Shown here piece after piece: positions 3,490-62,242 of a DNA stretch of 64,000 bases. Position 1 is the first letter of the stretch; every line of letters starts with the position of its first letter. The DNA is taken from contig NZ_LR134439.1 in assembly GCF_900637845.1 (NCBI RefSeq), positions 1,364,001 to 1,428,000 on the forward strand, in the 5' to 3' direction. This stretch comes from Erysipelothrix rhusiopathiae (lineage in GTDB: Bacteria > Bacillota_I > Bacilli_A > Erysipelotrichales > Erysipelotrichaceae). Position numbers and translations under genes: made by a program. The notes under the pieces were generated by a model. The model searched no databases. It worked only from the letters and a program-made list of their open reading frames with translations, and was not told the origin of the DNA.

Positions 3490-3576
3490 GCCCGAGTGGT
3501 GAAATCGGTAGACGCACTGGACTCAAAATCCAGCGAGGTAAAACTCATGACGGTTCGAGTCCGTCCTCGGGCACCA
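3490..3576 (+). tRNA. tRNA-Leu (anticodon CAA)
   Basis: An 87-nt class II tRNA. The acceptor GCCCGAG pairs with CTCGGGC, the discriminator is A and CCA is encoded. The anticodon stem CTGGA/TCCAG encloses CTCAAAA, giving anticodon CAA for UUG codons. A long variable arm (GAGGTAAAACTC) and the T-loop GTTCGAGTC are present. Foreign-looking DNA begins right after its terminator, so the 3' end is a plausible integration site, but I found no second copy of the tRNA end in the window. Confidence 0.97.
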
Positions 3577-3590
3577 TATGCATAAATACA

Positions 3591-3624
3591 GACTCTTGAT
3601 TTTATCTAAATCAAGAGTTTTTTT
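3591..3624 (+). terminator. Terminator of tRNA-Leu
   Basis: ACTCTTGAT and ATCAAGAGT form a nine-base stem followed by seven T residues. Confidence 0.9.
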
Positions 3625-3644: not shown

Positions 3645-4016
3645 ATGGAAAGAAAGCCACTCAGATTTATACTTTCTGAGTTTGTGGCTGATGAAGTAAA
3701 AAAAAACGGTTTGACTGTTAGAGGGTTTGCCAAAAAAGCAGGTGTTTCACACTCGACAATTCAGAAACTAAAATATCCAAATTCTGGAGGTGTTCGATTA
3801 GATATTGTTGATGAACTCCTAAATAATCTTGGAGTGACATTGAAAGAAATCATCAATAATATGGTGAGTTTAAGTAAACGCAAAAAAAAGAGCCTTTACG
3901 GCTCCAACCTGCGTTACAACCTTATTAGATATTCGCACTATCTAATAAGTGATTCACCACAATATGCAATTTATAATTGCGTAAATTGTGCTTTTAAGCG
4001 TGTCCAGATTAACTGA
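3645..4016 (+). CDS. Small XRE-family helix-turn-helix regulator, probably with an unnatural C-terminal tail
   Basis: Residues 1-75 form a compact DNA-binding domain of the Cro/CI type, with the helix-turn-helix in LTVRGFAKKAGVSHSTIQKL (23-42) and a second helix pair in VRLDIVDELLNNLGVTLKEII. The ribosome site GGAGGTGATG supports the start. The last 50 residues, after NNMVS, are low-complexity. They are encoded by DNA that on the other strand looks like a complete small RNA gene with promoter and terminator. The original protein therefore probably ended near residue 75, and the present tail may be read-through created when the mobile element joined here. It probably regulates the adjacent replication or integration functions; that is inference. 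Confidence 0.7.
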   Translation: MERKPLRFILSEFVADEVKKNGLTVRGFAKKAGVSHSTIQKLKYPNSGGVRLDIVDELLNNLGVTLKEIINNMVSLSKRKKKSLYGSNLRYNLIRYSHYLISDSPQYAIYNCVNCAFKRVQIN

Positions 4017-4024
4017 CCGCTTGT
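3882..4024 (-). ncRNA. Candidate antisense RNA controlling the RepA_N gene
   Basis: The minus strand carries a complete small transcription unit of about 143 nt. A consensus promoter ends near 4031 and an intrinsic terminator (GAGCC/GGCTC, five-base loop, eight T) sits at 3882-3904. In between are two perfect hairpins: an 11-bp stem at 3921-3949 with a seven-base loop and a 6-bp stem at 3966-3980. The unit lies about 200 bp upstream of, and antisense to the presumed leader of, the RepA_N gene. RepA_N plasmids such as pSK41 control initiator translation with a countertranscribed RNA in the same position. Promoter, hairpins and terminator are seen directly; the function is inferred. Confidence 0.65.
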
Positions 4025-4030
4025 AAAAAT

Positions 4031-4059
4031 ATTATAAGGTAAACTCAACTCAAAATCAA
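4031..4059 (-). promoter_or_regulatory. Promoter of the candidate antisense RNA
   Basis: Read on the minus strand: TTGATT, 17 bases, TATAAT. The -10 box is perfect and the spacing ideal. The start point is expected near 4024. Confidence 0.75.
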
Positions 4060-4226
4060 CGCGAATATTGCAACATCCAGCAATCAAATACACTATTTTT
4101 CATTTTTCTTTAATTTAATGATTAAAGTTGAGACATAGATCTATATTGATGCAGGAATCTATAGGTTCTTGAATACATTTCATGTGTAAGTGCATGCATC
4201 AAAGAATTAAGAAAGAAGGGGTAATT

Positions 4227-4769
4227 ATGACGCAAAGAAGACGATTTCATGTTAGTGATGTGATTAATAGTACATTTTTTCAAGTTCCTAAATTTCTGTT
4301 TACAGATGAGTTTAAAGATTTAAATAGTGATGCGCGGTTACTTTATGCCATGCTAAAAGATAGACACGAGTTATCACTAAAAAACAGATGGTTAACTGAT
4401 GATGGGGAAGTATATCTCATCTATACGCGTGAAGAGATGATGCGCATGTTACAAGTCAGTAAACCTACAGTAATTAAAGCAATGGAAGCATTAAAAGAAC
4501 ATGGGTTGCTAGAAGAAGTAAGACAGGGATTAAGAAAGCCAAACTTATTTTTTATGTACATGATTGAAGATGAATACTTTCAATTTCCTAGTGATTCTTT
4601 AGACGATAAAGAGAAGATAGAAGAAACGAATGCTAATGAAAGAAGCACAAATAAGCGACTAAATAGTGGAGAAATCCCTGAAGTAAAGAATCTTTACCCT
4701 ATCTATACTGATAGTAATAAGACTGATATTTGGTATGGCAACACTTTTTTAGACAAAATCACTAGTTAG
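4227..4769 (+). CDS. RepA_N-type replication initiator, C-terminus replaced by IS sequence
   Basis: This is a replication initiator with the RepA_N DNA-binding domain, which binds iterons inside its own gene in theta-replicating Firmicutes plasmids and some integrative elements. The N-terminal 115 residues match well (FFQVPKFLFTDEFKDLNSDARLLYAMLKDR and a winged-helix part with YTREEMMRMLQVSKPTVIKAM). The ATG at 4227 follows GAAGGGG; the in-frame ATG at 4182 lacks a ribosome site. The IS copy inserted at 4736 supplies the last 11 codons. Removing the IS and one GTA repeat restores a frame that stops four codons later, so the longer C-terminal part of plasmid initiators was already absent. Probably a relic of a plasmid or integrative element. 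Confidence 0.75.
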   Translation: MTQRRRFHVSDVINSTFFQVPKFLFTDEFKDLNSDARLLYAMLKDRHELSLKNRWLTDDGEVYLIYTREEMMRMLQVSKPTVIKAMEALKEHGLLEEVRQGLRKPNLFFMYMIEDEYFQFPSDSLDDKEKIEETNANERSTNKRLNSGEIPEVKNLYPIYTDSNKTDIWYGNTFLDKITS

Positions 4770-5543
4770 TCTTTGTTGGTATTCGACTGGCCTCAAATAA
4801 CCCAGAGTCGAGTGAATGCGTTTGTGATTGAACCAATAAATGTATGTCGATAATTCTTCCTTTAACTCATCGAGACTCTCAAATGATCGTCTCCTTACAA
4901 ACTCTGTTTTAATAATCTTGAATGTGGCTTCCGCTACTGCATTGTCATTAGGTGTACCCTTCGCACTAAGTGATCGTGTAATCCCAAATGCTCCAAGCAT
5001 TTCGCCAATGCTGTAATTCTTGAACTCTGAACCTCTATCGGTATGAAAATATTTTATATTAGATAGATTTCCGCCTACTTTCGTAAAGGCATCCAGGACA
5101 AGAGATGGCGTTTTCCTTTCACCACAACTTGATCCAATTATTTCTCGCGCATGAAGGTCTAAAAGTATGCAAATATAATTCCAGTTATTCCCAACTCTTA
5201 CATAAGTCAAATCACTGACAACAACCTGCAACTTACTTCTATCATTGAAATCTCGGTTTACTAAATTTTCAATTTTTGATTCGTTGACATCAGATGAATG
5301 ATTTCGATACTTCTTTTTAGTATAAACTGACACCAGTTCATGTTTTCTCATAATTCTTGATATACTGCGTCGTGATGTATTTATTCTTTTTCTTTGAAGC
5401 TCAGCCCTGATTTTTCTACTGCCATATATCGAATGACTCTTATAAAATACATCAATAACTTCATCTTCAAAGTGATCAAACTCTTTTATCTTTGGCCTGT
5501 ATGAATAGATTGCGCTTCTTGCTACATTTAGATATTTACACAT
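4749..5543 (-). CDS. IS3-family transposase OrfB (DDE integrase core), copy A
   Basis: The 264-residue visible part starts at an internal ATG (MCKYLNVARSAIYSYR). The frame is open about 70 bases further upstream, as expected for a product normally made by -1 frameshift from OrfA. An HTH_21-like segment (IDVFYKSHSIYGSRKIRAEL) comes first, then the retroviral-integrase fold with D in VVSDLTYVRVG, D in FHTDRGSEFKN and E in NAVAEATFKIIKTE. It differs from copy B mainly in the first 80 residues and is nearly identical after that, a mosaic pattern that suggests recombination between copies. Confidence 0.93.
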   Translation of the reverse strand: MCKYLNVARSAIYSYRPKIKEFDHFEDEVIDVFYKSHSIYGSRKIRAELQRKRINTSRRSISRIMRKHELVSVYTKKKYRNHSSDVNESKIENLVNRDFNDRSKLQVVVSDLTYVRVGNNWNYICILLDLHAREIIGSSCGERKTPSLVLDAFTKVGGNLSNIKYFHTDRGSEFKNYSIGEMLGAFGITRSLSAKGTPNDNAVAEATFKIIKTEFVRRRSFESLDELKEELSTYIYWFNHKRIHSTLGYLRPVEYQQRLTSDFV

Positions 5544-5601
5544 TGAAGAAATTGAATATTTATCCGAATTATTACGTATAATCTCTATTTTCGTCCCATA
5601 A

Positions 5602-5910
<309 letters not shown>

Positions 5911-6017
5911 GATAATATCCTCTTTCTGTTATTTTATATTAACTAACAGATTTGTCTATAACATTGTAGCCGGTCCAGTATTTGTTTTAGCAAATCCAAT
6001 TGGATTGAAAGAGGTAA

Positions 6018-10844: not shown

Positions 10845-10887
10845 TAATTAATAGAACGCACTCGATTAAAGTGCGTTCTATTAATTA
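10845..10887 (-). promoter_or_regulatory. Perfect 18-bp hairpin between precursor peptide and exporter genes
   Basis: Bases 10845-10862 and 10870-10887 are exact reverse complements around a seven-base loop, and the stem includes the stop codon of the precursor gene. There is no T-tract, so it is more likely a partial terminator or an mRNA 3' stabiliser than a full stop. Such a structure would raise precursor mRNA relative to transporter mRNA, a common need in RiPP operons. Confidence 0.75.
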
Positions 10888-11073
10888 CCATGGGTCTCCT
10901 GTAACATATTGATTAGAAATATTTTTTGAACCAATATATTTATCCTGATTTAAGCGTGCCAAATTATCGCCCCACGTACTACAATTTGTACAACCTCTAC
11001 TTATACAAGAACAATTTGAAAGTAATGAGTTAATAGAAGAAGTACTTTGATTCGTTTTCTGTAGTTTATTCAT
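10885..11073 (-). CDS. RiPP precursor peptide with four cysteines (CXC-X4-CXXC)
   Basis: A 62-residue Ser/Asn/Thr-rich peptide with Cys at 21, 23, 28 and 31 (NCSCISRGCTNCSTWG) and a C-terminus ending in VTGDPW. It has no signal peptide and no double-glycine site. Its position between an acyl-carrier-related protein and an exporter, in an operon with a radical SAM/SPASM maturase, identifies it as the likely substrate of thioether or similar crosslinking. It resembles the Cys-rich precursors associated with the clostridial CcpM maturases. The start overlaps the upstream gene by eight bases and has an excellent GAGGAGGTGA ribosome site, which suggests strong translation. The modified residues are not known. 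Confidence 0.85.
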   Translation of the reverse strand: MNKLQKTNQSTSSINSLLSNCSCISRGCTNCSTWGDNLARLNQDKYIGSKNISNQYVTGDPW

Positions 11074-14108: not shown

Positions 14109-14175
14109 TGGACCGGCTACAATGTTATAGACAAATCTGTTAGTTAGTATAAAATAACAGAAAGAGGATATTATC

Positions 14176-14484
14176 ATGGAAAAAAGAACAAGAAGAAAAT
14201 TTACTGATGAATTTAAAACACAAATTGTGAAATTGTATCAAGGTGGAAGATCTGCAGGTGACCTTGCGCGCGATTACGATTTGAATGAACAGCTGGTGTA
14301 CCGATGGGTAAAACAACAGACTACTTCAGGATATTTCAAAGCTGCTGTTAATAGAACTGACGAAGAAAATGAACTTATAAAGCTTCGAAAAGAAAACCAA
14401 CAGTTAAAAATGGAAAATGATATTTTAAAGCAAGCAGCGCTGCCTCCTGTACTCTTCGAGTTTTGGGGCATAGTAGTACATTGA
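14176..14484 (+). CDS. IS3-family OrfA, copy B
   Basis: 102 residues, differing from copy A in only two positions (SGY for SGS, FWG for FRG). It has the helix-turn-helix at 13-47 and the coiled coil at 64-89. The 41-bp extra segment is at 14443-14483 in this copy. Without it OrfA would end in KQAALIMGRK, matching the KQTALIMPRK end of the related decayed IS further right. An AAAATAG slippery run sits just downstream. Confidence 0.9.
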   Translation: MEKRTRRKFTDEFKTQIVKLYQGGRSAGDLARDYDLNEQLVYRWVKQQTTSGYFKAAVNRTDEENELIKLRKENQQLKMENDILKQAALPPVLFEFWGIVVH

Positions 14485-14542
14485 TTATGGGACGAAAATA
14501 GAGATTATACGTAAGAATTCGGATAAATATTCAATTTCTTCA

Positions 14543-15337
14543 ATGTGTAAATATCTAAATGTAGCAAGAAGCGCGATCTATTCATACAGGCCAAAGACAA
14601 AAGAAATCGATCAATTTGAAGATGAAGTTATTGATGTATTTTATAAGAGTCATTCGATATATGGCAGTCGTAAAATTAGAGCTGACCTTCGAAGAAATGG
14701 AATCAATACATCACGACGCAGGATATCAAGAATTATGAGAAAACATGAACTGGTGTCAGTTTATACTAAAAAGAAGTATAAAAATCATTCATCTGATGTC
14801 ATCGAATCAAAAATTGAAAATTTAGTAAACCGAGATTTCAATGATAGAAGTAAGTTGCAGGTTGTTGTCAGTGATTTGACTTATGTAAGAGTTGGGAATA
14901 ACTGGAATTATATTTGCATACTTTTAGACCTTCATGCGCGAGAAATAATTGGATCAAGTTGTGGTGAAAGGAAAACGCCATCTCTTGTCCTAGATGCCTT
15001 TACGAAAGTAGACGGAAATCTATCTAATATAAAATATTTTCATACCGATAGAGGTTCAGAGTTCAAGAATTACAGCATTGGCGAAATGCTTGGAGCATTT
15101 GGGATTACACGATCACTTAGTGCGAAGGGTACACCTAATGACAATGCAGTAGCGGAAGCCACATTCAAGATTATTAAAACAGAGTTTGTAAGGAGACGAT
15201 CATTTGAGAGTCTCGATGAGTTAAAGGAAGAATTATCGACATACATTTATTGGTTCAATCACAAACGCATTCACTCGACTTTGGGTTATTTGAGCCCAGT
15301 CGAATACCAACAAAGACTAACTAGTGAATTTGTCTAA
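14543..15337 (+). CDS. IS3-family transposase OrfB, copy B
   Basis: 264 residues from the internal ATG, with an intact DDE triad (VVSDLTYVRVG, FHTDRGSEFKN, NAVAEATFKIIKTE). Residues 18-80 carry about ten changes against copy A; the remainder is almost the same. Translation presumably depends on frameshifting or coupling from OrfA, because no ribosome site precedes the ATG. Confidence 0.92.
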   Translation: MCKYLNVARSAIYSYRPKTKEIDQFEDEVIDVFYKSHSIYGSRKIRADLRRNGINTSRRRISRIMRKHELVSVYTKKKYKNHSSDVIESKIENLVNRDFNDRSKLQVVVSDLTYVRVGNNWNYICILLDLHAREIIGSSCGERKTPSLVLDAFTKVDGNLSNIKYFHTDRGSEFKNYSIGEMLGAFGITRSLSAKGTPNDNAVAEATFKIIKTEFVRRRSFESLDELKEELSTYIYWFNHKRIHSTLGYLSPVEYQQRLTSEFV

Positions 15338-15350
15338 AAAAGTGTTGCCA

Positions 15351-15886
15351 TAACAGATACTAATGATTAAGTTATAATTGATATTAATCCATAAAAAATA
15401 CTTGAATGGCAAACATCTGATATAATAAAGAAGGGTTCATAATTCAACAGATAACCTAAGTAGGTGTGGCTATTGTGATAGAACTCGTCACTCTTTTGAA
15501 TAATTAATAAACTTTTAATTTGGTAGAATGATATTAGATATATGTAATTACTTAATGGAGTTCTTCTTAATTAATACAGGAATCAATCCTTAAATTTAGC
15601 AGATAATTTGATTGTCCAAGATTTGGGGTTAGTTCATAATCGTACAGACTTTTTTTTATTAAACAGAAAAAACCGCACCTTCGGTGGTGCGGTTGAGATT
15701 TAAATTTAAGAATTCTACCGATATATAAATGTTATAAGTAGAGTTTGCTACTCCCACTCAACTACATAAAATCTTTCATTAACCACAAATTACCCATTTC
15801 AAAGCCTATTTTAATATCACTTTTCTCTGTATTCTCACGATTATCTTGTTTCTCAAAGTTTTTGACATCATTTTGATATCACTTGT
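15351..15886. other. Gene-free stretch with decayed sequence
   Basis: 536 bp without a supportable gene. On the minus strand, about 15886 to 15764, a 38-codon open stretch ends in GFEMGNLWLMKDFM and stop. It reads like the C-terminal tail of a protein but has no start, so it may be a remnant. A minus-strand terminator lies at 15667-15694. The junction with the IS at 15350 shows no target duplication. Confidence 0.5.
15667..15694 (-). terminator. Intrinsic terminator, minus strand
   Basis: AACCGCACC pairs with GGTGCGGTT around a six-base loop, followed on the minus strand by a T run. It would end transcripts coming from the two minus-strand genes at 15.9-18.7 kb. Confidence 0.8.
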
Positions 15887-20140: not shown

Positions 20141-23100
20141 ATGCAAACTTCAGAAAACAAACCAAAAAATTTTGATAATATAATTGAGAAAAGAAAAAAA
20201 CTCTTGGATGTATATCCTAATTCAAATAAAGATGATTATGATAAGTATGAAGAACAATTAAATCTTGTGTTTTCTAATGAAGAAATTAATACTACTGCGA
20301 TTGTTGGGGGATATGGTACCGGAAAAAGCACACTCATTAAAACACTAGAAAAAAATAAAAAACTAAAATTTTGTTATATTTCAGCACTTCCTTATTCATC
20401 AAATGTGAAACAGAAAAACCACATTGAAGATGACGAAAGTAAACTTGATTCTGATTGTAATAGTGGGATTGCGTTAGAGAAAAAAATAATTGAGCAAATC
20501 TATAATCAAGTTTCTAACAGATCCAACCAGAGACTTGACTATTTTCTGTATCCACTCTTTTCACTATGTACACTTGGAATTGCTATCGTTTATTTTTTAG
20601 GACCAAGGATTGAAAATATAAAATCTTTTTGGAGTACCCTTAGAAATGCTATAACTATAAAGGCAATACCTATATTGCCTGAATCAACCGTCATACTATT
20701 TACTTTCTCAGTTTTGTGGATTCTTTACTCGATTTATGTTTTGATTTCAACTTCAAACTTTTCGTCAATAATAAATCGAGTTAAAATTCCGTCGATCGAG
20801 GTACAACTTAGTCAACATGATGTTGGGTTTGATAGAGTAACGACAGAATTAATAAGACTATTATCCAAATCAAATTTTGATGCTGTGATTGTTGAAGATT
20901 TAGATCGATTTATGGATAAGGGTGTTATTTTTCAATTAAGAGAATTTGCTAATTTATACAATAGAAGCGCAATGCGCAAAATGAAGTTTATATTTCTCTT
21001 AGACTTTAGTACTATCGATGATGAAAAACTAAGAGCGAAGTTTTTTGACCATTCCATAAATGTTGTCCCATATATGAGTTACTCGTATTCTTATAGTTAT
21101 GTTAAAGAAATTCAAAAACTTTGTGAAGATTTAGGAAACTATTCATTGACTCACGTTTCGGATGGACTGATAAGGATTTTAACAAATTGCATTCATGAGT
21201 CTAGACTACTAAGAATAATTATATCTGACTATATATTTCTATCTGAATCCTATTATGGAGATAAAATTTCAAAACTTGGTTTGGAAGATCAGGAGAGAAC
21301 AAAAATTGAAGATTTATTGCTTTCGCTATCAATTTACAAACATATTTTCACACAAGATTACAACAGTTTTTTAGAAGGTAATGGCAATCTGCATAGCCTT
21401 CTTATAAAAAATGAGAACGAACAAACAGCTAAATTAAAAACAAGTAATGAATCTTATGAAAAAAATATTGATTCAGCAAAGAAAGATATTTTAAATGATG
21501 AGAAAGAAATATTATTGGTTGAGACTTTTAAAATTTCAGAACCAAATTATTTTAATGATTCTGAGCTAAGTAGTTCATATGGATATATTTATAATCGTCA
21601 TTTTAAGGATGTAATGCAATCGCAAAGTTATAAAACGCGAATCAAGTTCTTAAATTCTAATTATGAAAAATATATTGCTGATCTAGAGGAAAAAATTAAT
21701 TCTAATATGATGAAAATATCTTATTACGTTCCAGAAGGAGATAATGAACTTAAAATAGAGTGGTCAGAAAATACGAATTATAATGAAGTAATCGGGGAAT
21801 TACTCTTTAAGGGCTATCTAACTTCAAAAGTAAGTATATATATAAGCCATAGAAGTGATGATTTAACTCCTGAAGAGACATTTCTAGTTGAACAGGCTAT
21901 TAGTAATGATACTAGTATCGACCCAAGCATTAAAGTGAATGAAGAAAATATTCCAACCATCATGTCTTTAATCAATAATGAAAAATTTGAAACATCAAAG
22001 TTGTTTAATTACAATATGATGAATTTTTTTAGAGAAAGAAAACAATATATTTCACAATATAAACAGATGGTAATTAATCTAGAAGACCAAATTAAGAGAA
22101 AAAAACCACAAATGGCAATAGAGTTCTTTTCATATGGATATTATGGTATGGCAAAATATAGTAATGATATTTATAAAATAATGTTACAAGATTGTGAATA
22201 CTATTCTGAAGAGTTTATTAGTGTTATGTTCAATAATTTTGATTCCAAAGAGATGGGTTTTGCCAATACAAGTTATTACTTATTTCTAGCGTTATTAGCT
22301 ACTAAGAGTTTAGATGATATACTTAAAATTGATTCTTTCGTAAGCTTTGTTAACAATATGTTTGAAATTAAGTCATTAGATTCACTTATCGATAGAACCA
22401 TCAATTTTGGTCAAGAAATAAATGAGATTGAAAGAAAGTTCATGCTTCTTGTTGCATCTGATAAAATCAGAATAAAATTTGAACGATATTTCATCGATAA
22501 CCCAAGTGTCTTATTTAAAAAAAGTTTAACTCAATATAAAGAAACACTAAAACAAAAAATTGAGAAACATCAATTTAAGAATAGTCATAGATTGATGCAA
22601 TTAATGTTTTTTTATCCTGATTCCGAGGATGCTTTATATTTAAATCTAAAATTAGATAAAGAAAACGAGAGAAAAATGATTGACTTTATGTTGGAAAATC
22701 CTATAGAAACTAGAGATAGTCTGATTGTTGGACCTAGACCCATCGATACAGATAAAAGTATTAGATTCTGGATTAATAATAAAAGTCTTAATGAGTATGA
22801 TTTTGAAGAACGTTTGATTAATAATTTGGGTCTTAAAGAATCGCTTGTAATATTTGATTCAATCGAGAACTACTCAACTGAGAGAGTTCCATTACAGTAT
22901 AAGGATATGTTTAGAAGAGATGCAAATTCCGAATTTATTCATTGGTTTGATGACTTAAGTAAATTAAATGAAGAGGTAGTCGAGGAAGTTATAACTAGAA
23001 ATTTATTTAAAATAAATCAACCAAATATTGACTATATTGTTAATTTATTTTTAGATAGTGAACCCAATAAACCAATGCTTGAATTTTTGTCAACATATGA

Positions 23101-23701
23101 CTATAATGAGTGCGTTTCTAATATATTGGAATGTAAAAACAGTAGAACTTTTTTCACAAAACTATTTGTAAATATTTCAGATAAATCTGATGTTGAATCA
23201 CTTGAAAGACTTGTAAGTAAATTACCCTTGAGAATAATAGAATTAGTTGAATTCACGATGAAAGAAACAATTAGTGATACCGATTGTGAGAACATTCTTA
23301 TTGAGAAAGGTTTTCTTTATCCATCATTTGATTTGCTGAGAAAGATAATATCAGAAGGCAATAATAATGCCCTTGACCGATATAAAAAATACATCATCGA
23401 CGTAATAGATGACCACAAGGAATTAATTGACAAACTATTCAGCAATGAAGAAGTAAAGTCACCTAAAACTATATTGGAAATAATGAAAGAAACTAATCAA
23501 TTTAAACGAGATATATTCAAGAAATTTGAAAAAACGAGAGAATTTACTGTTATAAGTACCAATGCTTATAGTAAGAGCTTTCGTAAACCAGTAACAAATA
23601 AAGTTAATTGTGACTTGGAGTTACTTAAAGAAGAAAAATTAGTAAAAGTTTCTGAGGAAAATGATTCGATAATAACGTTTAAAATAAACTGGCAAAAATA
23701 A
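20141..23701 (+). CDS. YobI-like membrane P-loop ATPase (KAP-related), putative defence protein
   Basis: 1,186 residues. An N-terminal P-loop ATPase has Walker A GGYGTGKS (56-63). It is split by two membrane segments (about 133-155 and 178-202) and resumes with Walker B FDAVIVEDLDRF near 250, followed by an Arg-containing helix. This insertion of two membrane helices inside the ATPase is the plan of KAP and YobI-type NTPases. The remaining 800 residues are helical, rich in Lys/Asn/Asp, without a recognisable effector domain. It is a single gene with AAAGGAAAC as ribosome site. KAP and YobI families are associated with bacterial conflict systems; the function here is inferred. Codon usage is as AT-rich as the neighbouring mobile DNA. 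Confidence 0.75.
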   Translation: MQTSENKPKNFDNIIEKRKKLLDVYPNSNKDDYDKYEEQLNLVFSNEEINTTAIVGGYGTGKSTLIKTLEKNKKLKFCYISALPYSSNVKQKNHIEDDESKLDSDCNSGIALEKKIIEQIYNQVSNRSNQRLDYFLYPLFSLCTLGIAIVYFLGPRIENIKSFWSTLRNAITIKAIPILPESTVILFTFSVLWILYSIYVLISTSNFSSIINRVKIPSIEVQLSQHDVGFDRVTTELIRLLSKSNFDAVIVEDLDRFMDKGVIFQLREFANLYNRSAMRKMKFIFLLDFSTIDDEKLRAKFFDHSINVVPYMSYSYSYSYVKEIQKLCEDLGNYSLTHVSDGLIRILTNCIHESRLLRIIISDYIFLSESYYGDKISKLGLEDQERTKIEDLLLSLSIYKHIFTQDYNSFLEGNGNLHSLLIKNENEQTAKLKTSNESYEKNIDSAKKDILNDEKEILLVETFKISEPNYFNDSELSSSYGYIYNRHFKDVMQSQSYKTRIKFLNSNYEKYIADLEEKINSNMMKISYYVPEGDNELKIEWSENTNYNEVIGELLFKGYLTSKVSIYISHRSDDLTPEETFLVEQAISNDTSIDPSIKVNEENIPTIMSLINNEKFETSKLFNYNMMNFFRERKQYISQYKQMVINLEDQIKRKKPQMAIEFFSYGYYGMAKYSNDIYKIMLQDCEYYSEEFISVMFNNFDSKEMGFANTSYYLFLALLATKSLDDILKIDSFVSFVNNMFEIKSLDSLIDRTINFGQEINEIERKFMLLVASDKIRIKFERYFIDNPSVLFKKSLTQYKETLKQKIEKHQFKNSHRLMQLMFFYPDSEDALYLNLKLDKENERKMIDFMLENPIETRDSLIVGPRPIDTDKSIRFWINNKSLNEYDFEERLINNLGLKESLVIFDSIENYSTERVPLQYKDMFRRDANSEFIHWFDDLSKLNEEVVEEVITRNLFKINQPNIDYIVNLFLDSEPNKPMLEFLSTYDYNECVSNILECKNSRTFFTKLFVNISDKSDVESLERLVSKLPLRIIELVEFTMKETISDTDCENILIEKGFLYPSFDLLRKIISEGNNNALDRYKKYIIDVIDDHKELIDKLFSNEEVKSPKTILEIMKETNQFKRDIFKKFEKTREFTVISTNAYSKSFRKPVTNKVNCDLELLKEEKLVKVSEENDSIITFKINWQK

Positions 23702-28668: not shown

Positions 28669-28863
28669 GTCATTTAAGAGTAAAACGACGATTAAAAAAT
28701 TTCCGTATCTAATTTAATACTGGGGTATAAAATGGAAGTATTATATGCAATAATCTAAATATTTCCTAAATATAATCGTGTCTCTAATACGAAATAGCGG
28801 AGTAAAATAAAGGCTTTTTTTGTGTTATATTTTATGCGTACACAAAAGAATAGGAGGATGATT

Positions 28864-29292
28864 ATGAGAAAAGCATTTTGTGTATCGGTTTTTTTGATTT
28901 TTACGATGGTGTTAGGAAGTATCGTTGATTTATCCGTCCAAGCGAATGAAGCTGCTGGACCAACGGACTATAATTGCTATTATTATGGTTTTGATGGTCG
29001 TGCAAATAGAAGAAGAGCGATAGTTTCAAGTGTTGTTGATAAAGAGACGTATAGCCCAAGTGGTATTGAATGGGATTATTCGTCTTTAAAAGGTCTCAAC
29101 ATGTTCTTTTCGATTCATAATTCTAGAACGGGTAAGGAACAAAGAGAGGTTCTTTTTATGAATCATGACTCGGGTTGTTTTACAATAACAAATACCAATA
29201 CAAAGAGAGGAACTCAATATGATCTTCGGGCTCGCAGACAAAATATATGGGATAGTGGGTATACACAAGTTTCGGGATCTTGGAGACCGTAA
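28864..29292 (+). CDS. Secreted two-cysteine protein, copy 1 (candidate bacteriocin-like effector)
   Basis: 142 residues. The signal peptide spans about 1-27 (KAFCVSVFLIFTMVLGSI, cleavage likely after VQA). A mature protein of about 115 residues has two Cys (NCYYYGFDG and DSGCFTI), probably forming one disulphide, and ends in VSGSWRP. I start at the ATG at 28864 behind AGGAGG; the ORF start at 28822 lacks a site. It is not a recognised family, though the size, secretion and ABC neighbours recall lactococcin-972-like proteins. Its paralogue at 33760 has an almost identical signal region but a more divergent mature part. It heads a four-gene unit with two membrane proteins and an ATPase. Confidence 0.75.
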   Translation: MRKAFCVSVFLIFTMVLGSIVDLSVQANEAAGPTDYNCYYYGFDGRANRRRAIVSSVVDKETYSPSGIEWDYSSLKGLNMFFSIHNSRTGKEQREVLFMNHDSGCFTITNTNTKRGTQYDLRARRQNIWDSGYTQVSGSWRP

Positions 29293-29320
29293 GACTTTAA
29301 AATAGGATAGGAATTGTAAT

Positions 29321-30187
29321 ATGCTTTCACGTAACGTAAGAAAAAATAGTGATTACCTACTTATTGTATTACTTTCTGCATCTGTATTTTTCATTTCTCT
29401 AGAATCGAATAATCACACGCTATCAACGCTTTGGGATGGATTTCAGAATTGTTTTAAGTTTTCGGGAATCGATGCGTTAGAATTCGGTGGAGAGAACAAT
29501 TGGTGGCCGTTTTTCCATCAAAGTGTAGGGTCCTACATTAGTATGATGATCTGGGGCTCGAATTTATTTCAATTATTACTTCCTCTATTTATCACTATTG
29601 TTGGGATAAACATCTACCTAAAGAAAAACAATGAGCACTTTTTTGAGTGTTACCGTTTTGATTGTTATTCAAAATTCATACGGAAGAAGATTTTTGAAGA
29701 GTCGCTTAAAGTTTCAATTTCAATCTTCTTGGGTTATTTAATTTTCTATATATTCGCCTCATTATTTGGAAGTAAAGTGAGTGCAGATGATATACAATTT
29801 GGTATTCCGGTAAAACTATTCATTGATTGGCTGCCTAAAGATTTCTTTTTAAACCACTGTAGGCTTTATCACTTATTATGGGGAATATTTGTATTCTTTA
29901 TTGTTCCATTTATTTATGGCGTCGCATATGGATTTGTAGTCCCTTATTTCCAAAATTTACCTATGGTAACACTAGCATTTACGATGTATTTTATTGCGTT
30001 TTCAATCGCAAGTTCATTATTTATCCCTTATAACTCTGTATTTAGATATATGTTCGATCCATCAGCTGTAATCGTTTCAGGAGCTTATAGTTATCCTAAT
30101 ACACTTATGTATCTATCGTCATTGCTTATTCCGATTATCACAGCAGTAGTTTTGTACTTTATAAGTTGGCGTCGTTATGAAGTTTAG
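29321..30187 (+). CDS. Polytopic membrane protein of the module, copy 1 (ABC-2-like permease)
   Basis: 288 residues with about six hydrophobic segments (15-32, 85-102, 135-155, 190-210, 220-240, 262-282). It has the size and spacing of small ABC-2-type permeases but no clear family signature. The start MLSRNVRKNSDYLL follows a weak GGATAGG site 28 bp after the secreted-protein gene. Its end overlaps the next permease gene by 11 bp, so the two are coupled. With the next two genes it likely forms a transporter that exports or neutralises the secreted protein; this is inferred from order. Confidence 0.75.
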   Translation: MLSRNVRKNSDYLLIVLLSASVFFISLESNNHTLSTLWDGFQNCFKFSGIDALEFGGENNWWPFFHQSVGSYISMMIWGSNLFQLLLPLFITIVGINIYLKKNNEHFFECYRFDCYSKFIRKKIFEESLKVSISIFLGYLIFYIFASLFGSKVSADDIQFGIPVKLFIDWLPKDFFLNHCRLYHLLWGIFVFFIVPFIYGVAYGFVVPYFQNLPMVTLAFTMYFIAFSIASSLFIPYNSVFRYMFDPSAVIVSGAYSYPNTLMYLSSLLIPIITAVVLYFISWRRYEV

Positions 30188-30902
30188 AAAAATAAAAAAA
30201 ATCTTACCATGTATTATGGTCCTCCCATTACTGATCATTACTTTTATACACTTGGTAAATGTACACCTTGATTCGATACATGGATTCCAAATTTACGCTG
30301 AGCATAAAGTATATTTCATGAACTCATCTGCATTCAGTAGAGTCGGACTCTATTTCAAAGACATAATAATTTTTGGGGTATTGAATCTGATTGTTTATTA
30401 CTTGTTTCTCTATACAGATACCGTAAGCGAACAGGAAACGTCAATTCATATGTTTATGATGTCACGATTTAAAAGTATAACCCGTTATTGGCTCTATCTA
30501 TTTTCAAAATATTTAAAGAACTCCCTCGCCATAATTATGGGTTATGGAGCACTTTTAGTTGCTTTTTCAAATACTCAACACATTCGTTTCGTTTTGTCTC
30601 CTAATAGTTTAGTTGAACTTTTTTTACAGGGCATCAAGATAGCACTATTGATGGTATTTTTAAAACTACTTTATAATTTTATAAACATAGCAACAAAAAA
30701 CGGTTCTCGATCAATTCACAAAATATTTACTGTATTTATATTGTTGTTAGCAGATATAATCATCGGCAAGTATCATTTAATTGTAATGCCTGACACGTAT
30801 GATATCAATTTACGGTATATCTCAATCTATATATGTTTCATTGTTATGACTTATTTTTTATACTGGGGTCATTCAAAAAAGATTGGAGAATATTATGATT
30901 AA
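30177..30902 (+). CDS. Second polytopic membrane protein of the module, copy 1
   Basis: 241 residues with about six hydrophobic segments (first at 10-29, LPCIMVLPLLIITFIHLV). Translation is coupled on both sides: it overlaps the preceding gene by 11 bp and the ATPase start by eight bp. It has 90% or more identity by eye to its copy at 35065. It probably forms the heterodimeric membrane part of an ABC transporter with its neighbour. Confidence 0.75.
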   Translation: MKFRKIKKILPCIMVLPLLIITFIHLVNVHLDSIHGFQIYAEHKVYFMNSSAFSRVGLYFKDIIIFGVLNLIVYYLFLYTDTVSEQETSIHMFMMSRFKSITRYWLYLFSKYLKNSLAIIMGYGALLVAFSNTQHIRFVLSPNSLVELFLQGIKIALLMVFLKLLYNFINIATKNGSRSIHKIFTVFILLLADIIIGKYHLIVMPDTYDINLRYISIYICFIVMTYFLYWGHSKKIGEYYD

Positions 30903-31530
30903 GATAAGAAATGTATCGAAACGATTTAAATATTTAGAAATTTTCGACGACATCTCTTTGGAACTTCCGAAGGGTAAGATTGTAGGACTCGTTGGAGAGA
31001 ATGGGTCTGGTAAAAGTGTACTCTTGAAGATGCTGTGTGGCTATTCTAAACCCACCTCAGGATCAATCAATGTGTATGGTGAAACATTAGGTGTAAACCG
31101 TGATTTTCCGAACAGTGTTGGCGTTTTAATTAATGATTCGCATTTCATCAAAAACTACACAGGTATGGAAAATCTCGAGTACTTGATAAATATTCGTAAA
31201 CAAACGGATAAAACCTTCATTAACGAATTAATTCAAATCTTCGATATGGAACGCAATATTCACAAGCACTATAAGTCTTATTCGTTAGGAATGAAACAAA
31301 AGTTACGAATCATTCAAGCGTTTATGGAACAACCAAATCTCGTACTCTTAGATGAACCCTTTAATGCTCTTGATAAAAGGTCAACAATGGTACTCGTAGA
31401 TTTAATTAAAAGATATATCAATGAAGACCGAATCATTATCTTCACAAGCCATGAGTATCAACATATCGAGCACCTAGCAGATACCGTCTTAACAATACAA
31501 GATAAAAAAATCATGGTTGATTGTGCATAA
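30895..31530 (+). CDS. ABC transporter ATPase of the module, copy 1
   Basis: 211 residues. Walker A is GLVGENGSGKSVLLK (about 31-45), the signature is YSLGMKQKLRII, Walker B is LVLLDEPFNALD and the H-loop is FTSHEYQHIEHLAD. The Ser-Val after Lys in Walker A is slightly unusual but allowed. The ATG at 30895 follows TTGGAGA; the in-frame TTG at 30883 is part of that site. It energises the two membrane proteins before it. A terminator follows. Confidence 0.9.
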   Translation: MIKIRNVSKRFKYLEIFDDISLELPKGKIVGLVGENGSGKSVLLKMLCGYSKPTSGSINVYGETLGVNRDFPNSVGVLINDSHFIKNYTGMENLEYLINIRKQTDKTFINELIQIFDMERNIHKHYKSYSLGMKQKLRIIQAFMEQPNLVLLDEPFNALDKRSTMVLVDLIKRYINEDRIIIFTSHEYQHIEHLADTVLTIQDKKIMVDCA

Positions 31531-33510: not shown

Positions 33511-33759
33511 ATTTGTTAATAGAATTATTCTGTTATTACATTGGGTTCTCAGGACTTTCACTTGAGCATAACAAAGAGAAAAGTGTGCTTGAATTCTAAA
33601 AAATATGTACTTTTGATATTAAACTGAATAGATTTATTCTATGCAATTAATCGAATATCTCCTTAATAATAGAATGAAATTCCTACGAAAGAGCGGAGTA
33701 AAAAAACGCTTTTTTTTATGATATATTTTATGCGTACACAAATGAAAAGGAGGGTGGTT

Positions 33760-34188
33760 ATGAGAAAAACGTTTTGTGTATCGGTTTTTTTGATTTTTAC
33801 GATGGTGTTAGGAAGTATTGTTGATTTATCCGTCCAAGCGAATGAAGCTGCTGGACCAACGGACTATAATTGCTATTATTATGGTTTCGATGGCAAAGCA
33901 AATAGAACGAGAGCTAGGGTGTCAAGTATCGTTGATAAGGAAACCAATAGTCCAAGCGGTATTGAGTGGGATGCTTCTTCTATTAAAGGGATTAACATGT
34001 ACTTCTCAATTCATGAAGCAAAAACAGATTATCTTAAAAAAGAGGTGTTCTTTGCAAATTCAGATTATGGATGCTTTACGATCACGGGTACTGACACTGT
34101 AAAAGGGGTGCAATATGATTTGCGCGCACGCCGTCAACATATTTGGGATTTTAGAGCAACTCATGTTTCAGGTTCCTGGAGACCTTAG
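33760..34188 (+). CDS. Secreted two-cysteine protein, copy 2
   Basis: 142 residues with the same plan as copy 1: signal peptide ending at VQA, Cys in NCYYYGFDG and DYGCFTI, and end VSGSWRP. The first 45 codons are nearly identical in DNA to copy 1, while the next 90 differ at roughly one residue in three, concentrated in SIHEAKTDYLKKEVFFANSD and the last 20 residues. The conserved delivery part and variable body suggest diversification of an exported effector. The start at 33760 is set by AAGGAGGGTGG. It lies 20 bp upstream of its permease gene. Confidence 0.75.
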   Translation: MRKTFCVSVFLIFTMVLGSIVDLSVQANEAAGPTDYNCYYYGFDGKANRTRARVSSIVDKETNSPSGIEWDASSIKGINMYFSIHEAKTDYLKKEVFFANSDYGCFTITGTDTVKGVQYDLRARRQHIWDFRATHVSGSWRP

Positions 34189-34208
34189 ATGAAGTGATGA
34201 TTGATAGT

Positions 34209-35075
34209 ATGTTACCGAAATTTGTAAGAAAGAACACTGATTACCTTCTTATTGCATTACTTTCGTCATCTGTATTCTTTATCTCGATCGAGTGCGAATA
34301 TGGTACTCTTTCAAGGCTTTGGGAGGGATACCAAAATGGTTTCAAACTTACGAGCTTAGAAGCATTAAAGTATGGCTCAGAAATAAACTGGTGGACATTG
34401 TTTCACCATAGTGTTGGATCCTATATAGGTATGATGATTTGGGGCACAAATTTATTTCAATTATTACTTCCACTATTTATCACTATTGTTGGGATAAACA
34501 TCTACTTAAAGAAAAACAATGAGTACTTTTTTGAGTGTTATCGTCATGACCGTCATTCGAAGTTTATGCTTAAAAAAATTGTTGGAGAATCGCTAAAAGT
34601 ATCGGCATCAATCTTTTTGGGATATCTACTCTTTTATATATTCACATTTTTTGTGGGAAGCAAAGTTACTGTCGATGACATGCAATTTGGTATTCCAGTA
34701 AAACTATTCATTGATTGGTTTCCTAAAGATTTCTTTTTAAATCACTGTAGGCTGTATCACTTATTATGGGGAATCTTTGTATTCTTTATTGTTCCATTAA
34801 TTTATGGCGTCGCATATGGATTTGTAGTCCCTTATTTCCGAAATTTGCCTATGGCAACACTAGTATTTACGATGTATTTTATTGCATTTTCAATCGCAAG
34901 TTCATTATTTATCCCTTATAACTCTGTTTTTAGATATATGTTCGATCCATCAGCTGTGATCGTTTCAGGAGCTTATAGTTATCCTAATACACTTATGTAT
35001 CTATCGTCATTGCTGGTTCCGATTATCACAGCAGGAGTATTGTACTTTATAAGTTGGCGTCGTTATGAAGTTTAG
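34209..35075 (+). CDS. Polytopic membrane protein of the module, copy 2
   Basis: 288 residues with about six hydrophobic segments, homologous along its length to the protein at 29321. The N-terminal 60 residues differ more than the rest (ECEYGTLSRLWEGYQNGFKLTSLEALKYG). An in-frame ATG at 34194 exists, but alignment with copy 1 favours the ATG at 34209, which gives the same 288-residue length. Neither start has a strong ribosome site, so coupling to the upstream gene is likely. It overlaps the next gene by 11 bp. Confidence 0.72.
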   Translation: MLPKFVRKNTDYLLIALLSSSVFFISIECEYGTLSRLWEGYQNGFKLTSLEALKYGSEINWWTLFHHSVGSYIGMMIWGTNLFQLLLPLFITIVGINIYLKKNNEYFFECYRHDRHSKFMLKKIVGESLKVSASIFLGYLLFYIFTFFVGSKVTVDDMQFGIPVKLFIDWFPKDFFLNHCRLYHLLWGIFVFFIVPLIYGVAYGFVVPYFRNLPMATLVFTMYFIAFSIASSLFIPYNSVFRYMFDPSAVIVSGAYSYPNTLMYLSSLLVPIITAGVLYFISWRRYEV

Positions 35076-35790
35076 AAAAATAAAAACAATCTTACCATGT
35101 ATGATGGTCCTCCCATTACTGACCATTACTTTTATACACTTGGTAAACGTACACCTTGATACGACACATGGATTCCAAATTTACGATGAGTATAAAGTAT
35201 ATTTCATGAACTCAGCTGCATTCAGTAGAGTCGGACTATATTTCAAAGAAATAATAATCTTTGGGGTATTGAATCTGATTGTGTATTACTTGTTTCTCTA
35301 TACTGATACCGTAAGCGAACAAGAAACGTCAATTCATATGTTTATGATGTCACGATTTAAAAGTATAACCTGTTATTGGCTCTATCTATTTTTAAAATAT
35401 TTAAAGAACTCCTTCGTCATAATTATGGGTTATGGAGCACTTTTAGTTGCTTTTTCAAATGCTCAACACGTTCGTTTCGTTTTGTCTCCTAATAGTTTAG
35501 TTGAACTTTTTTTACAGGACATCAAGATAGTGCTATTGATGGTATTTTTAAAACTATTTTATAACTTTATAAACATAACGACAAAAAACGGTTCTCGATC
35601 AATTCACAAAATATTTACTGTATTTATGTTGTTGTTAGCAGATATAATCATCGGCAAGTATCATTTAATTGTGATGCCTGACTCGTATGACATCAATTTA
35701 CGGTATATCTCAATCTATATTTGTTTCATTGTTATGACTTATTTTTTATACTGGGGTCATTCAAAAAAGATTGGAGAATATTATGATTAA
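35065..35790 (+). CDS. Second polytopic membrane protein of the module, copy 2
   Basis: 241 residues, nearly identical to the protein at 30177. The few substitutions include DEYKVYF for AEHKVYF and LQDIKIVLLMVFLKL for LQGIKIALLMVFLKL. It has six hydrophobic segments and overlaps at both ends with neighbouring genes. The higher conservation than in the first permease suggests that the first permease and the secreted protein carry the specificity of the module. Confidence 0.75.
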   Translation: MKFRKIKTILPCMMVLPLLTITFIHLVNVHLDTTHGFQIYDEYKVYFMNSAAFSRVGLYFKEIIIFGVLNLIVYYLFLYTDTVSEQETSIHMFMMSRFKSITCYWLYLFLKYLKNSFVIIMGYGALLVAFSNAQHVRFVLSPNSLVELFLQDIKIVLLMVFLKLFYNFINITTKNGSRSIHKIFTVFMLLLADIIIGKYHLIVMPDSYDINLRYISIYICFIVMTYFLYWGHSKKIGEYYD

Positions 35791-36418
35791 GATTAGAAAT
35801 ATATCAAAACGATTTAAAAATTTAGAAATTTTCGAAGACGTCTCTTTGGAAATTCCGACGGGTAAGATTGTAGGCCTCGTTGGAGAGAATGGGTCTGGTA
35901 AAAGTGTACTCATGAAGATGCTGTGTGGCTATTCTAAACCCACCTCAGGATCAATCAATGTCTATGAAGAAACATTAGGTGTAAACCGTGATTTTCCACG
36001 GAGTGTTGGGGTTTTGATTAATGACTCGCATTTCATCAAAAATTACACAGGTATGGAGAATCTCGAGTACTTGATAAATATTCGTAAACAAACGGATAAA
36101 ACCTTCCTTAACGAATTAATTCAAATCTTCGATATGGAACGCAATATTCACAAGCGTTATAAGGCTTATTCGTTAGGAATGAAACAAAAGTTAAGAATTA
36201 TTCAAGCGTTCATGGAACAACCAAATCTCGTACTCTTAGATGAACCCTTTAATGCTCTTGATAAAAGATCAACGATGGTACTCGTAGATTTAATAAAAAG
36301 ATATATCAATGAAGACCGAATCATTATCTTCACAAGCCATGAGTATCAACATATCGAGCACCTTGCAGATACCGTCTTAACAATACAAGATAAAAATATC
36401 ATGGTTGATTGTGCATAA
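35783..36418 (+). CDS. ABC transporter ATPase of the module, copy 2
   Basis: 211 residues, almost the same as the ATPase at 30895. The motifs GLVGENGSGKSVLMK, YSLGMKQKLRII and LVLLDEPFNALD are intact. The start overlaps the preceding permease by eight bp behind TTGGAGA. It is the last gene of the duplicated module. Confidence 0.9.
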   Translation: MIKIRNISKRFKNLEIFEDVSLEIPTGKIVGLVGENGSGKSVLMKMLCGYSKPTSGSINVYEETLGVNRDFPRSVGVLINDSHFIKNYTGMENLEYLINIRKQTDKTFLNELIQIFDMERNIHKRYKAYSLGMKQKLRIIQAFMEQPNLVLLDEPFNALDKRSTMVLVDLIKRYINEDRIIIFTSHEYQHIEHLADTVLTIQDKNIMVDCA

Positions 36419-60079: not shown

Positions 60080-60313
60080 GCATTTCTCGTTAAAAATGAT
60101 ACCGGTATCATTAATAACACAATGCATTTCATTAAAAGTATAGATTAACGTTAGAATGTACTCACAAATCTTAAGAAATCTTAATAGAGCCCTTAAAGCA
60201 GCTCAAAACGAAAAAATATCTTTACATGACCGAGATTTTATTTTATTTTTAATTCAGAAACATATCAAAAAAACAACATTATATTTCAAAATAGAACAAA
60301 GGGGATGGAAGGC

Positions 60314-62242
60314 ATGACACATAAATCAAAATACATATCACGATTTTTAAAGTTTATGATATGTTCTTGTATTAGTTTTACGGTTTTAATGAGTAAGACA
60401 ACACTTATTAATGCTCAAGAACTAAAACAAGCAGAACAAGATTTGAAATACTACTCTGAATTGACACCAGAACGAGCATTAGTAATGTTTAAAGCTTACT
60501 TATACTCATTTGATGGGATGACGGAAGAACGTGTTAATCGTTATATTAATCAGATTAAAAAACTTCCGGTAGAACAGCAAGCGGCCAAGATTGTGGAACT
60601 GAAAAAACCATTTGAAGAACGTAGAGTTCGAGAAAATCGTTTAAAAGCGATTGAGACGCTTACAGAGGAAATCCGTGGTAAGTTCTTTTTTATTCCAAGT
60701 AACGTTAAAGAAAACTATATCAGTTTAATTCAAAGTGCACCACTTGAAGAACTAGAGAAATATCGCGAGGAATTACAAGCACTTGATAAGAAGAATTCTT
60801 TAATGGCGGATGTGTTTTTAAAACTTCGTGAAGAACTTTTCAAAATGAAATTTTTATCTCAAAGTGAGAAAAATCACTATGATGATGAGATGGAATCTGC
60901 ATACAACGATAAAAATGAATACATGCTGCAAAGTGTTTTCAAACGAGCACAAGAAGCGAATGAAAAGGCACGTTTAAAAGCTCCTGAAACACTCCTTGGT
61001 AATGCGAAAGCGAATGCGAAAACCAAAATCGAACGTTTATACGCCATGATTGATGCAATGGATCACGATCTTAAACCGTTACCCGATACTGCATTCTATC
61101 AAGGGTATAAACCTTTTTGGAAACAATATCAATCAATGCGTATACCAAAAGAAGCAATGTTGAAGGAATTGGAAAAGCAAAAACGTGTTGAAGATGTTGA
61201 ATCATATATTTCACAAAAAGTAATGCAACACATGGACTATGTTTCGTTAGAGTATTCAGCACGAAAAGCTTTAAGCTTAGCAAAGCTTTATCCTAATGTT
61301 GCATCCGTTCAAAAACACCTTGCAGAAGATATATTCAAAACATGGCCTCAAGGTGATATTTCGGGTGTGTCTTTTGTATCCGATAGACGACTTCAACGCA
61401 TTGAACTCGCAATCCAGGAATATAAGAACCAAACTAAAAAACCGGATGAACCTGCAAAACCAGTTGTACATATAAAACCAGATGTGCCTGCAAAACCAGG
61501 TGCACCTGTTAAACCAGTAGCACCTGTTAAACCAGTAGCACCTGTTAAACCAGTAGCACCTGTTAAACCAGTAGCACCTGTTAAACCAGTAGCACCTGTC
61601 AAATCAGTATTACCAGAAAAACCAAAAGTTTTGATTAAAAACACATGGAAAAAAATCAATCAGAAGAATTACTACTTCAATCAAGACGGACTTCCACTAA
61701 CTGGATTTTTCAATGTAAATCAAAAACTTTATTATGCAACTGTAGAAGATGGGACGAAATTAGGTTGGCATAAGGTCAATAAAAAGTGGTACTTTACCGA
61801 ACAAGACGGTTTAGTCGTTATGGGTTGGAAAAAGATTAAGAATCAGTGGTATTACTTAGATAACAGTGGTGTTATGGCAACAGGTTGGAAAAAAGTATCG
61901 AATAAGTGGTATTACCTTGGGGAATCGGGTGCTATGGCATCGGGATGGAAAAAGATAAACAATAAGTGGTACTATCTTGAAAACTCAGGTGTGATGGCAA
62001 CAGGCTGGAAAAAAGTGAATCATAAGTGGTACTATCTTGAAAATTCAGGAGCGATGGCTACAGGATGGAAAAAAATTAATAATACGTGGTATTTTCTTGA
62101 ACCGTCAGGAATGATGGCAACGGGATGGAAGAAAGTTAACCAGCAATGGTATTACTTTAATGATTCAGGCGCTATGATAACAGGACGGCACAAAATACAG
62201 GGGAAATGGTACCGATTTAATGAGAATGGGGTCTGGTTATAA
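60314..62242 (+). CDS. Secreted GW-repeat (choline-binding-type) surface protein
   Basis: 642 residues. The signal peptide is about 1-32 ([24 protein letters not shown]). A charged helical region (35-370) has unknown function. A Pro-rich spacer of six APVKPV units (about 397-432) leads to about ten 20-residue repeats of the form [20 protein letters not shown]. These repeats bind phosphorylcholine or similar wall decorations and hold the protein on the surface, as in Erysipelothrix SpaA. No LPXTG is present. The ATG at 60314 is preferred to 60305, which touches the AAGGGGA site. The N-terminal domain is probably the functional part; I cannot assign it. Confidence 0.88.
61502..61609 (+). repeat. 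18-bp tandem repeat encoding APVKPV
   Basis: Five exact units of GCACCTGTTAAACCAGTA and a sixth with two changes. It lies within the Pro-rich spacer and stays in frame. It is a likely variable-number tandem repeat that sets spacer length. Confidence 0.95.

Follow-up and report, generated by a model that had tools for sequence, protein, structure and literature searches.

Between a small HTH gene and the remains of a RepA_N-type repA gene in the chromosome of Erysipelothrix rhusiopathiae, the minus strand carries a promoter, a series of hairpins and a terminator. Is this the gene of an antisense RNA and, if so, what does the RNA control? The first-pass annotation of the locus took it, if still expressed, for the copy-control RNA of a RepA_N plasmid, to be compared with RNAI of pSK41, kept on a tRNA-linked island and possibly able to silence incoming related plasmids. 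To our knowledge, the copy control of integrative elements has been little studied.

RNA control has been suggested as possibly universal for the RepA_N family (PMC8129170, available in part) and, as far as the accessible text of a 2017 review goes, pSK41-like RNA control is apparently absent in RepA_N plasmids of other genera (PMC5703833). ICEs of E. rhusiopathiae have been described (PMC11083093), a location at tRNA genes not being confirmed in the accessible part of that paper. Searches of open-access papers turned up no antisense RNA of an ICE replicon.

Results

A minus-strand unit upstream of repA

The window, by which we mean the whole 64,000-nt stretch analysed (G000:C1:1364001-1428000, from a genome of 1.77 Mb in a single contig), carries the features listed in Table 1. 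The minus-strand promoter and terminator lie where the first-pass annotation had placed them, the 3′ end of the small RNA having the form GGAGCC-loop-GGCTCT-T7; of its two hairpins described as perfect, SL3 is indeed a perfect 11-bp hairpin and SL2 has a bulged lower stem. The 5′ end lies 203 nt from the RepA_N gene (PF06970, E 1e-24).

Table 1. Features around the small RNA gene, numbered from the first base of the window.
Feature	Position	Strand	Remark
tRNA-Leu(CAA)	3490..3576	+	its final 16 bases (3561-3576) recur in relatives as the core of the direct repeat at the left end of the element
Intrinsic terminator between tRNA and HTH gene	3590..3620	+	HTH ribosome-binding site close behind
Small HTH (Cro/C1-type) gene	3645..4016	+	frameshifted near its end, frame extends to 4016
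Small RNA gene	3882..4024	-	about 140-143 nt; 5′ end inferred from the -10 box
SL1	4022-3996	-
SL2	3990-3958	-
SL3	3949-3921	-
SL4		-	weak in the window
SL5/terminator	3905-3889	-	T-run to 3882
Small RNA promoter, TTGATT-N17-TATAAT	4031..4059	-	-35 at 4059-4054, spacer 17 nt, -10 TATAAT at 4036-4031
Non-coding leader, small RNA start to repA	4025..4226	+	no sense terminator found
repA (RepA_N domain) remnant, cut off	4227..4730	+	homologous to G001 repA up to 4730
IS3-type insertion element truncating repA	4727..5977	-	97.5% identical to inverted copy 14109-15359

Promoter-like sites were about as frequent as in shuffled sequence (6 observed, 5.7 expected), so that chance alone would account for the promoter match; terminators were more frequent than in shuffles (4 observed, 0.5 expected), and that of the small RNA is one of the four. 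The small RNA folds with an MFE of -40.8 kcal/mol (z -3.96), which none of 200 shuffles equalled. Since the plus strand at the same place has an even more negative z (-5.37), folding in the window alone leaves the strand undecided. Rfam at the curated score gave the tRNA as its sole match, with no family for the small RNA, and at E values up to 10 gave only weak, unrelated matches on the other strand.

A family of eight loci

A covariance model (R1) built from four training sequences found eight loci in 6 of the 13 genomes of the genus. Four of these loci are the training set itself; the other four—a second locus in G003, two in G007 and one in G006—were new, with E values from 5e-10 to 1e-5. 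Weaker model matches in G206, G207 and G249 (E 0.01-0.04) were treated as noise and left out of all counts, two of them still being rows of alignment A4. Two further blastn matches within the genus (G009, G012) were dropped, as they lie inside unrelated genes. No DNA match was found among 72,556 plasmids and 50,697 phages, and neither the RepA fragment nor a 43-nt SL2 pattern had a match in genome_contigs or viral_contigs.

Conservation of the hairpins in relatives, proposed as a check in the first-pass annotation, was borne out: SL1, SL2, SL3 and the terminator fold at all eight loci, and most add a GAAC/GUUC hairpin, giving about five stem-loops in an RNA of 140-164 nt. In the lower stem of SL1 all 40 cells of the alignment are paired, with two-sided changes in three of the five pairs (pair types AU/GU/CG, AU/GU, GC/GU/AU, CG and GC/AU), a covariation score that 3 of 500 shuffles reached. 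The pair count over four sequences was not significant, being reached by 122 of 500 shuffles, and RNAalifold on plain MAFFT alignments recovered the terminator alone.

The strand follows from the eight loci together, which show a conserved promoter, a U-run, a lower MFE and pairing changes on the minus strand. The promoter stands at an equal distance from the small RNA in seven of them, as placed by script, the one in G007b having TATACT and a weaker -35 element. At all eight loci the minus strand has the lower MFE, and at all but the window it also has the more negative z; G-U pairs number 49 of 396 on the minus strand versus 22 of 334 on the plus strand. As judged by this conservation and by a fold below that of shuffles, the unit at 4059-3882 is a real, conserved gene of a small structured RNA. 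To that extent the first-pass annotation, which had placed an antisense-oriented gene ahead of the RepA_N gene on a tRNA-linked island, is supported.

Beyond the small RNA promoter in G011 and G003 (L063, L065), at about 50-100 nt, the minus strand has another hairpin with a T8 run after it; a TTGACT/TATAAT-like promoter immediately precedes this hairpin, and the resulting RNA would be only about 30-40 nt long.

A constant gene order at tRNA ends

Matches to the HTH gene were found in 9 of 272 genomes of the family (E up to 0.001); two of them (G237 and G006:C1:3970) were discarded as apparently unrelated. G004 and G002 have the HTH gene with a small RNA that is decayed or unrecognisable; in G003 and G011 the HTH gene lies directly behind tRNA-Leu(CAA), with the same promoter and terminator layout on the other strand as in the window. 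The order is constant: tRNA end, terminator, HTH gene, small RNA, initiator-like gene. A tRNA gene stands directly upstream in seven of the eight loci (Leu three times, Gln twice, Val and Phe once each), and the eighth (G001) has a tRNA-end repeat. The terminator between tRNA and HTH gene was found by script in G000, G001, G011, G006 and G007a and by eye in G003a, G004, G002 and G007b. The 3′ end of the small RNA lies at most 7 nt from the HTH stop codon in 7 of 8 loci, and in all eight the distance from its 5′ end to the start of the RepA_N or RepX gene is 67-329 nt.

The gene after the small RNA is of the RepA_N type at two loci, the window and G001, and at the other six belongs to a group that we call RepX, one of them weakly related. 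The RNA thus belongs with a family of integrative conjugative elements and not with RepA_N plasmids as such, since it travels with the HTH gene and precedes a non-RepA_N gene in other members. One RepA_N gene of the genus, on G011:C2, is without it. RepX of G011, of G003 (twice), of G007a and of G006 has 383-421 aa, the others being 22-51% identical to the G011 protein; the G007b protein (349 aa), which the RepX search missed, is 23% identical to G011 RepX in the same alignment. RepX (L059:1297-2445 and homologues, 349-421 aa) matched nothing in Pfam or PHROG and nothing convincingly in NCBIfam, was not found among the 72,556 plasmids, and gave nothing convincing in a profile search of solved chains. 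Its predicted structure, of modest quality (pLDDT 62.9), resembles relaxase domains, namely those of R1162 MobA (Foldseek E 9.7e-4, VIA Z 11.4, 158 aligned, 4.2 Å) and 4ht4 (Z 10.4). From its position and modelled fold, RepX is more plausibly an initiator than another relaxase, because G011 carries a separate MobP3-type relaxase.

The carriers are best seen in G011, where a 37-kb element lies between the tRNA end and an exact 15-bp copy of it and carries a serine recombinase (about 6 kb short of the far end), a MobP3-type relaxase and VirD4; the tRNA-end direct repeats, recombinase, relaxase, coupling protein and secretion ATPase expected of an ICE were all found there. Similar recombinases lie about 29 kb from the G006 RNA, about 33 kb from the G007a RNA and, if the contig is circular, about 53 kb from the G007b RNA; for the G006 and G007 elements, the stretches examined at the far end showed no att repeat. 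ParA-like ORFs follow the rep position in G001, G011, G003a, G003b, G007a and G007b, recognised by eye except in G001, in a reading that covered these six loci and the window, which has none.

A decayed element in the window and an intact relative

The locus of G001 is 94% identical to that of the window and retains an intact repA (344-aa ORF) and an HTH gene of 77 aa. Behind repA follow parA, parB, a large surface protein, a VirB4-like ATPase, a MobP3-type relaxase and a CD1115-type VirD4. This element begins on its left with a repeat of the bases of the tRNA-Leu 3′ end, CCGTCCTCGGGCACCA, and between tRNA-Leu and that repeat lies a prophage with its own tyrosine integrase. The G001 region at 708-744 kb (L052-L053, L010) thus presents a tandem accretion at one tRNA-Leu, prophage then conjugative element. 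No recombinase was found near the G001 element.

Compared with G001, the HTH gene of the window has lost one base near its end, and repA keeps its first ~168 codons before the IS3-type element cuts it off. A search of the window for eight backbone proteins of G001 returned the 5′ part of repA as its sole convincing match (others E 0.016 or weaker); parAB and transfer genes are absent, and the gene set of an ICE was not found in the island. From about 23697 onward the sequence is again chromosomal and 98% like that of G001. Judging by what is left—an att end, a frameshifted HTH gene, the small RNA gene and the 5′ part of repA—the window's element is a decayed remnant, so any action of the small RNA there would have to be in trans, on a related element.

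Other features of the window were noted in passing. The inverted IS3-type copies at 4727-5977 and 14109-15359 (97.5% identical) flank a radical SAM/ABC transporter cluster with an ORF for a 62-aa cysteine-rich peptide at 10885-11073, which looks like a peptide-natural-product cluster moved into repA as a composite element. At the island's right end (20141-23701) lies a YobI-type P-loop ATPase gene whose 3′ part matches G001 at ~781 kb with ~83% identity; neighbouring four-gene copies at 28822-31530 and 33718-36418 (156-aa, 288/293-aa, 241-aa and a 215-aa ABC ATPase) look like a tandem duplication; and 60305-62242 encodes a choline-binding-repeat surface protein.

Substitutions between window and G001 are unevenly spread: 23 of 237 sites in the HTH gene, 15 of 140 in the small RNA, 0 of 36 in its promoter region (4024-4059), 1 of 167 in the leader (4060-4226) and 22 of 300 in the first 100 repA codons. 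The small RNA evolves faster than the leader (Fisher p 9e-5), and of its 15 substitutions 10 are at unpaired sites, which make up 52 of the 140 (Fisher p 0.021); the five at paired sites keep the pair in every case on the minus strand and in two of five on the plus strand. The SL3 loop reads GTGCGAA in the window and CTACGCA in G001, which makes cross-silencing of G001 by the window RNA doubtful, as three of seven positions differ. A fast-changing RNA with changes in unpaired sites and in the SL3 loop would fit a counter-transcribed RNA with loop-set specificity, selection and recombination being indistinguishable from two genomes. An 8-bp complementarity of the sense-strand SL3 loop with 4062-4069, seen by eye, was rejected because it is not kept in G001.

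The leader between small RNA and initiator gene

A sense terminator between the small RNA start and rep was not found in six of the eight loci; G007a has one and G011 a weak one. Neither the window nor G001 has a leader hairpin or terminator overlapping the ribosome site, by a script that does find the antisense terminator of pSK41 and its sense hairpin 7 nt from the ATG, and that finds the antisense unit in the window. Predicted plus-strand promoters differ among the loci, except in the near-identical G000 and G001, so that no shared rep promoter emerged. Covering the presumed target had no visible effect on accessibility of the rep start site, a calculation in which the pSK41 control barely moved either.

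In a survey of RepA_N leaders in the family, in which four loci had no ORF found and three were duplicates, 12 of 25 distinct relatives had a terminator-like hairpin on the sense strand, 17-42 nt ahead of the start codon and resembling the pSK41 OFF structure; RNA or attenuation control may thus occur outside staphylococci.

Discussion

The evidence leans towards the small RNA and the HTH gene forming a replication-control module, by antisense restraint of initiator synthesis, of conjugative elements at tRNA 3′ ends. Transcription from the HTH side would pass through the complement of the small RNA into the rep leader, and such a transcript could carry the complement into rep because six of eight loci are without a sense terminator in between; since the terminator and the HTH ribosome site stand so close together that a promoter would hardly fit between them, transcription of the operon may come for the most part from the opposite end of the excised circle. 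The small RNA, probably constitutive, would pair with the rep leader, probably first through its variable loops, and pairing would lower initiator synthesis in proportion to the copy number of the element, with the HTH protein as a putative second, Cop-like brake.

That the small RNA instead controls the HTH gene, shaping the 3′ end of its mRNA or blocking read-through from the tRNA side, strikes us as unlikely, even though the two are convergent, the HTH gene is the closest constant neighbour with its stop so near, and the downstream gene changes family among loci: the RNA also sits just upstream of an initiator-like gene in every locus, Inc18 plasmids are known to place an antisense RNA between cop and rep, and several conserved stems would be superfluous in a simple 3′-end blocker. 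Somewhat less probable still is a trans-acting RNA of the element, directed at transfer, excision or host genes and antisense to the rep leader by position alone; its constant intergenic place between HTH gene and rep in six genomes, beside four kinds of tRNA, argues for a local role, against the strong fold of its own with variable loops and the leader in which no structure switch was seen (nor much of one in the pSK41 control). We find it very improbable that promoter, hairpins and terminator met by chance, or that they are a dead relic functionless throughout the family, for promoter, fold and pairing changes are conserved in other species, despite the decay of the window's element and promoter-like sites no commoner than in shuffles.

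Tentatively, the pair of HTH gene and antisense RNA could be a portable, initiator-independent cassette for replication control and incompatibility, its specificity coded in fast-changing loops, which in decayed islands would persist as a chromosomal incompatibility locus against incoming relatives; conjugative elements would then swap RepA_N for a relaxase-fold initiator yet keep their copy control. What the loci do show is a conserved, structured, antisense-oriented RNA of integrated conjugative elements which, outside staphylococci, stands before a RepA_N gene and in other members before an unrelated initiator-like gene. The eight loci allow a direct test of whether an antisense RNA sets ICE copy number and incompatibility.

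Comparison with known systems

Membership in the pSK41/pSA564 family of RepA_N antisense RNAs, with whose pSK41 type the first-pass annotation had suggested a comparison, can be set aside as hardly credible: the RNA shares with RNAI/RNA1 its position and minus-strand orientation upstream of a RepA_N repA, but has ~140 nt and about five stem-loops against ~83 nt and two there (PMC5703833, in its accessible part), no terminator structure overlapping the ribosome site was found, the HTH gene is linked and co-oriented whereas that of pSK41 runs the opposite way, and an unrelated gene follows the RNA in other members.

SGI1 offers a likeness of another kind, being an integrative element with its own initiator whose family includes members with unrelated alternative initiators, as here (PMC7433901, available in part). 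It is, however, Gram-negative and carries different genes, and the available text of that paper mentions neither 'antisense' nor 'small RNA'.

By analogy of arrangement, the closest known layout is copR-RNAIII-repR of Inc18. In pIP501, copR encodes a 92-aa HTH protein, RNAIII has 136 nt, as against 140-164 nt here, and the leader has 329 bp (PMC4981023, in its accessible part). The elements described here differ in that their initiators are RepA_N or a relaxase-fold protein, that they are tRNA-integrated conjugative elements, and that no general sense attenuator was found, leader sense terminators being limited to the two loci named above. The likeness is one of layout, and the Inc18-type layout, a small HTH gene upstream and an antisense RNA within a long leader before an initiator-like gene, recurs in all eight loci.
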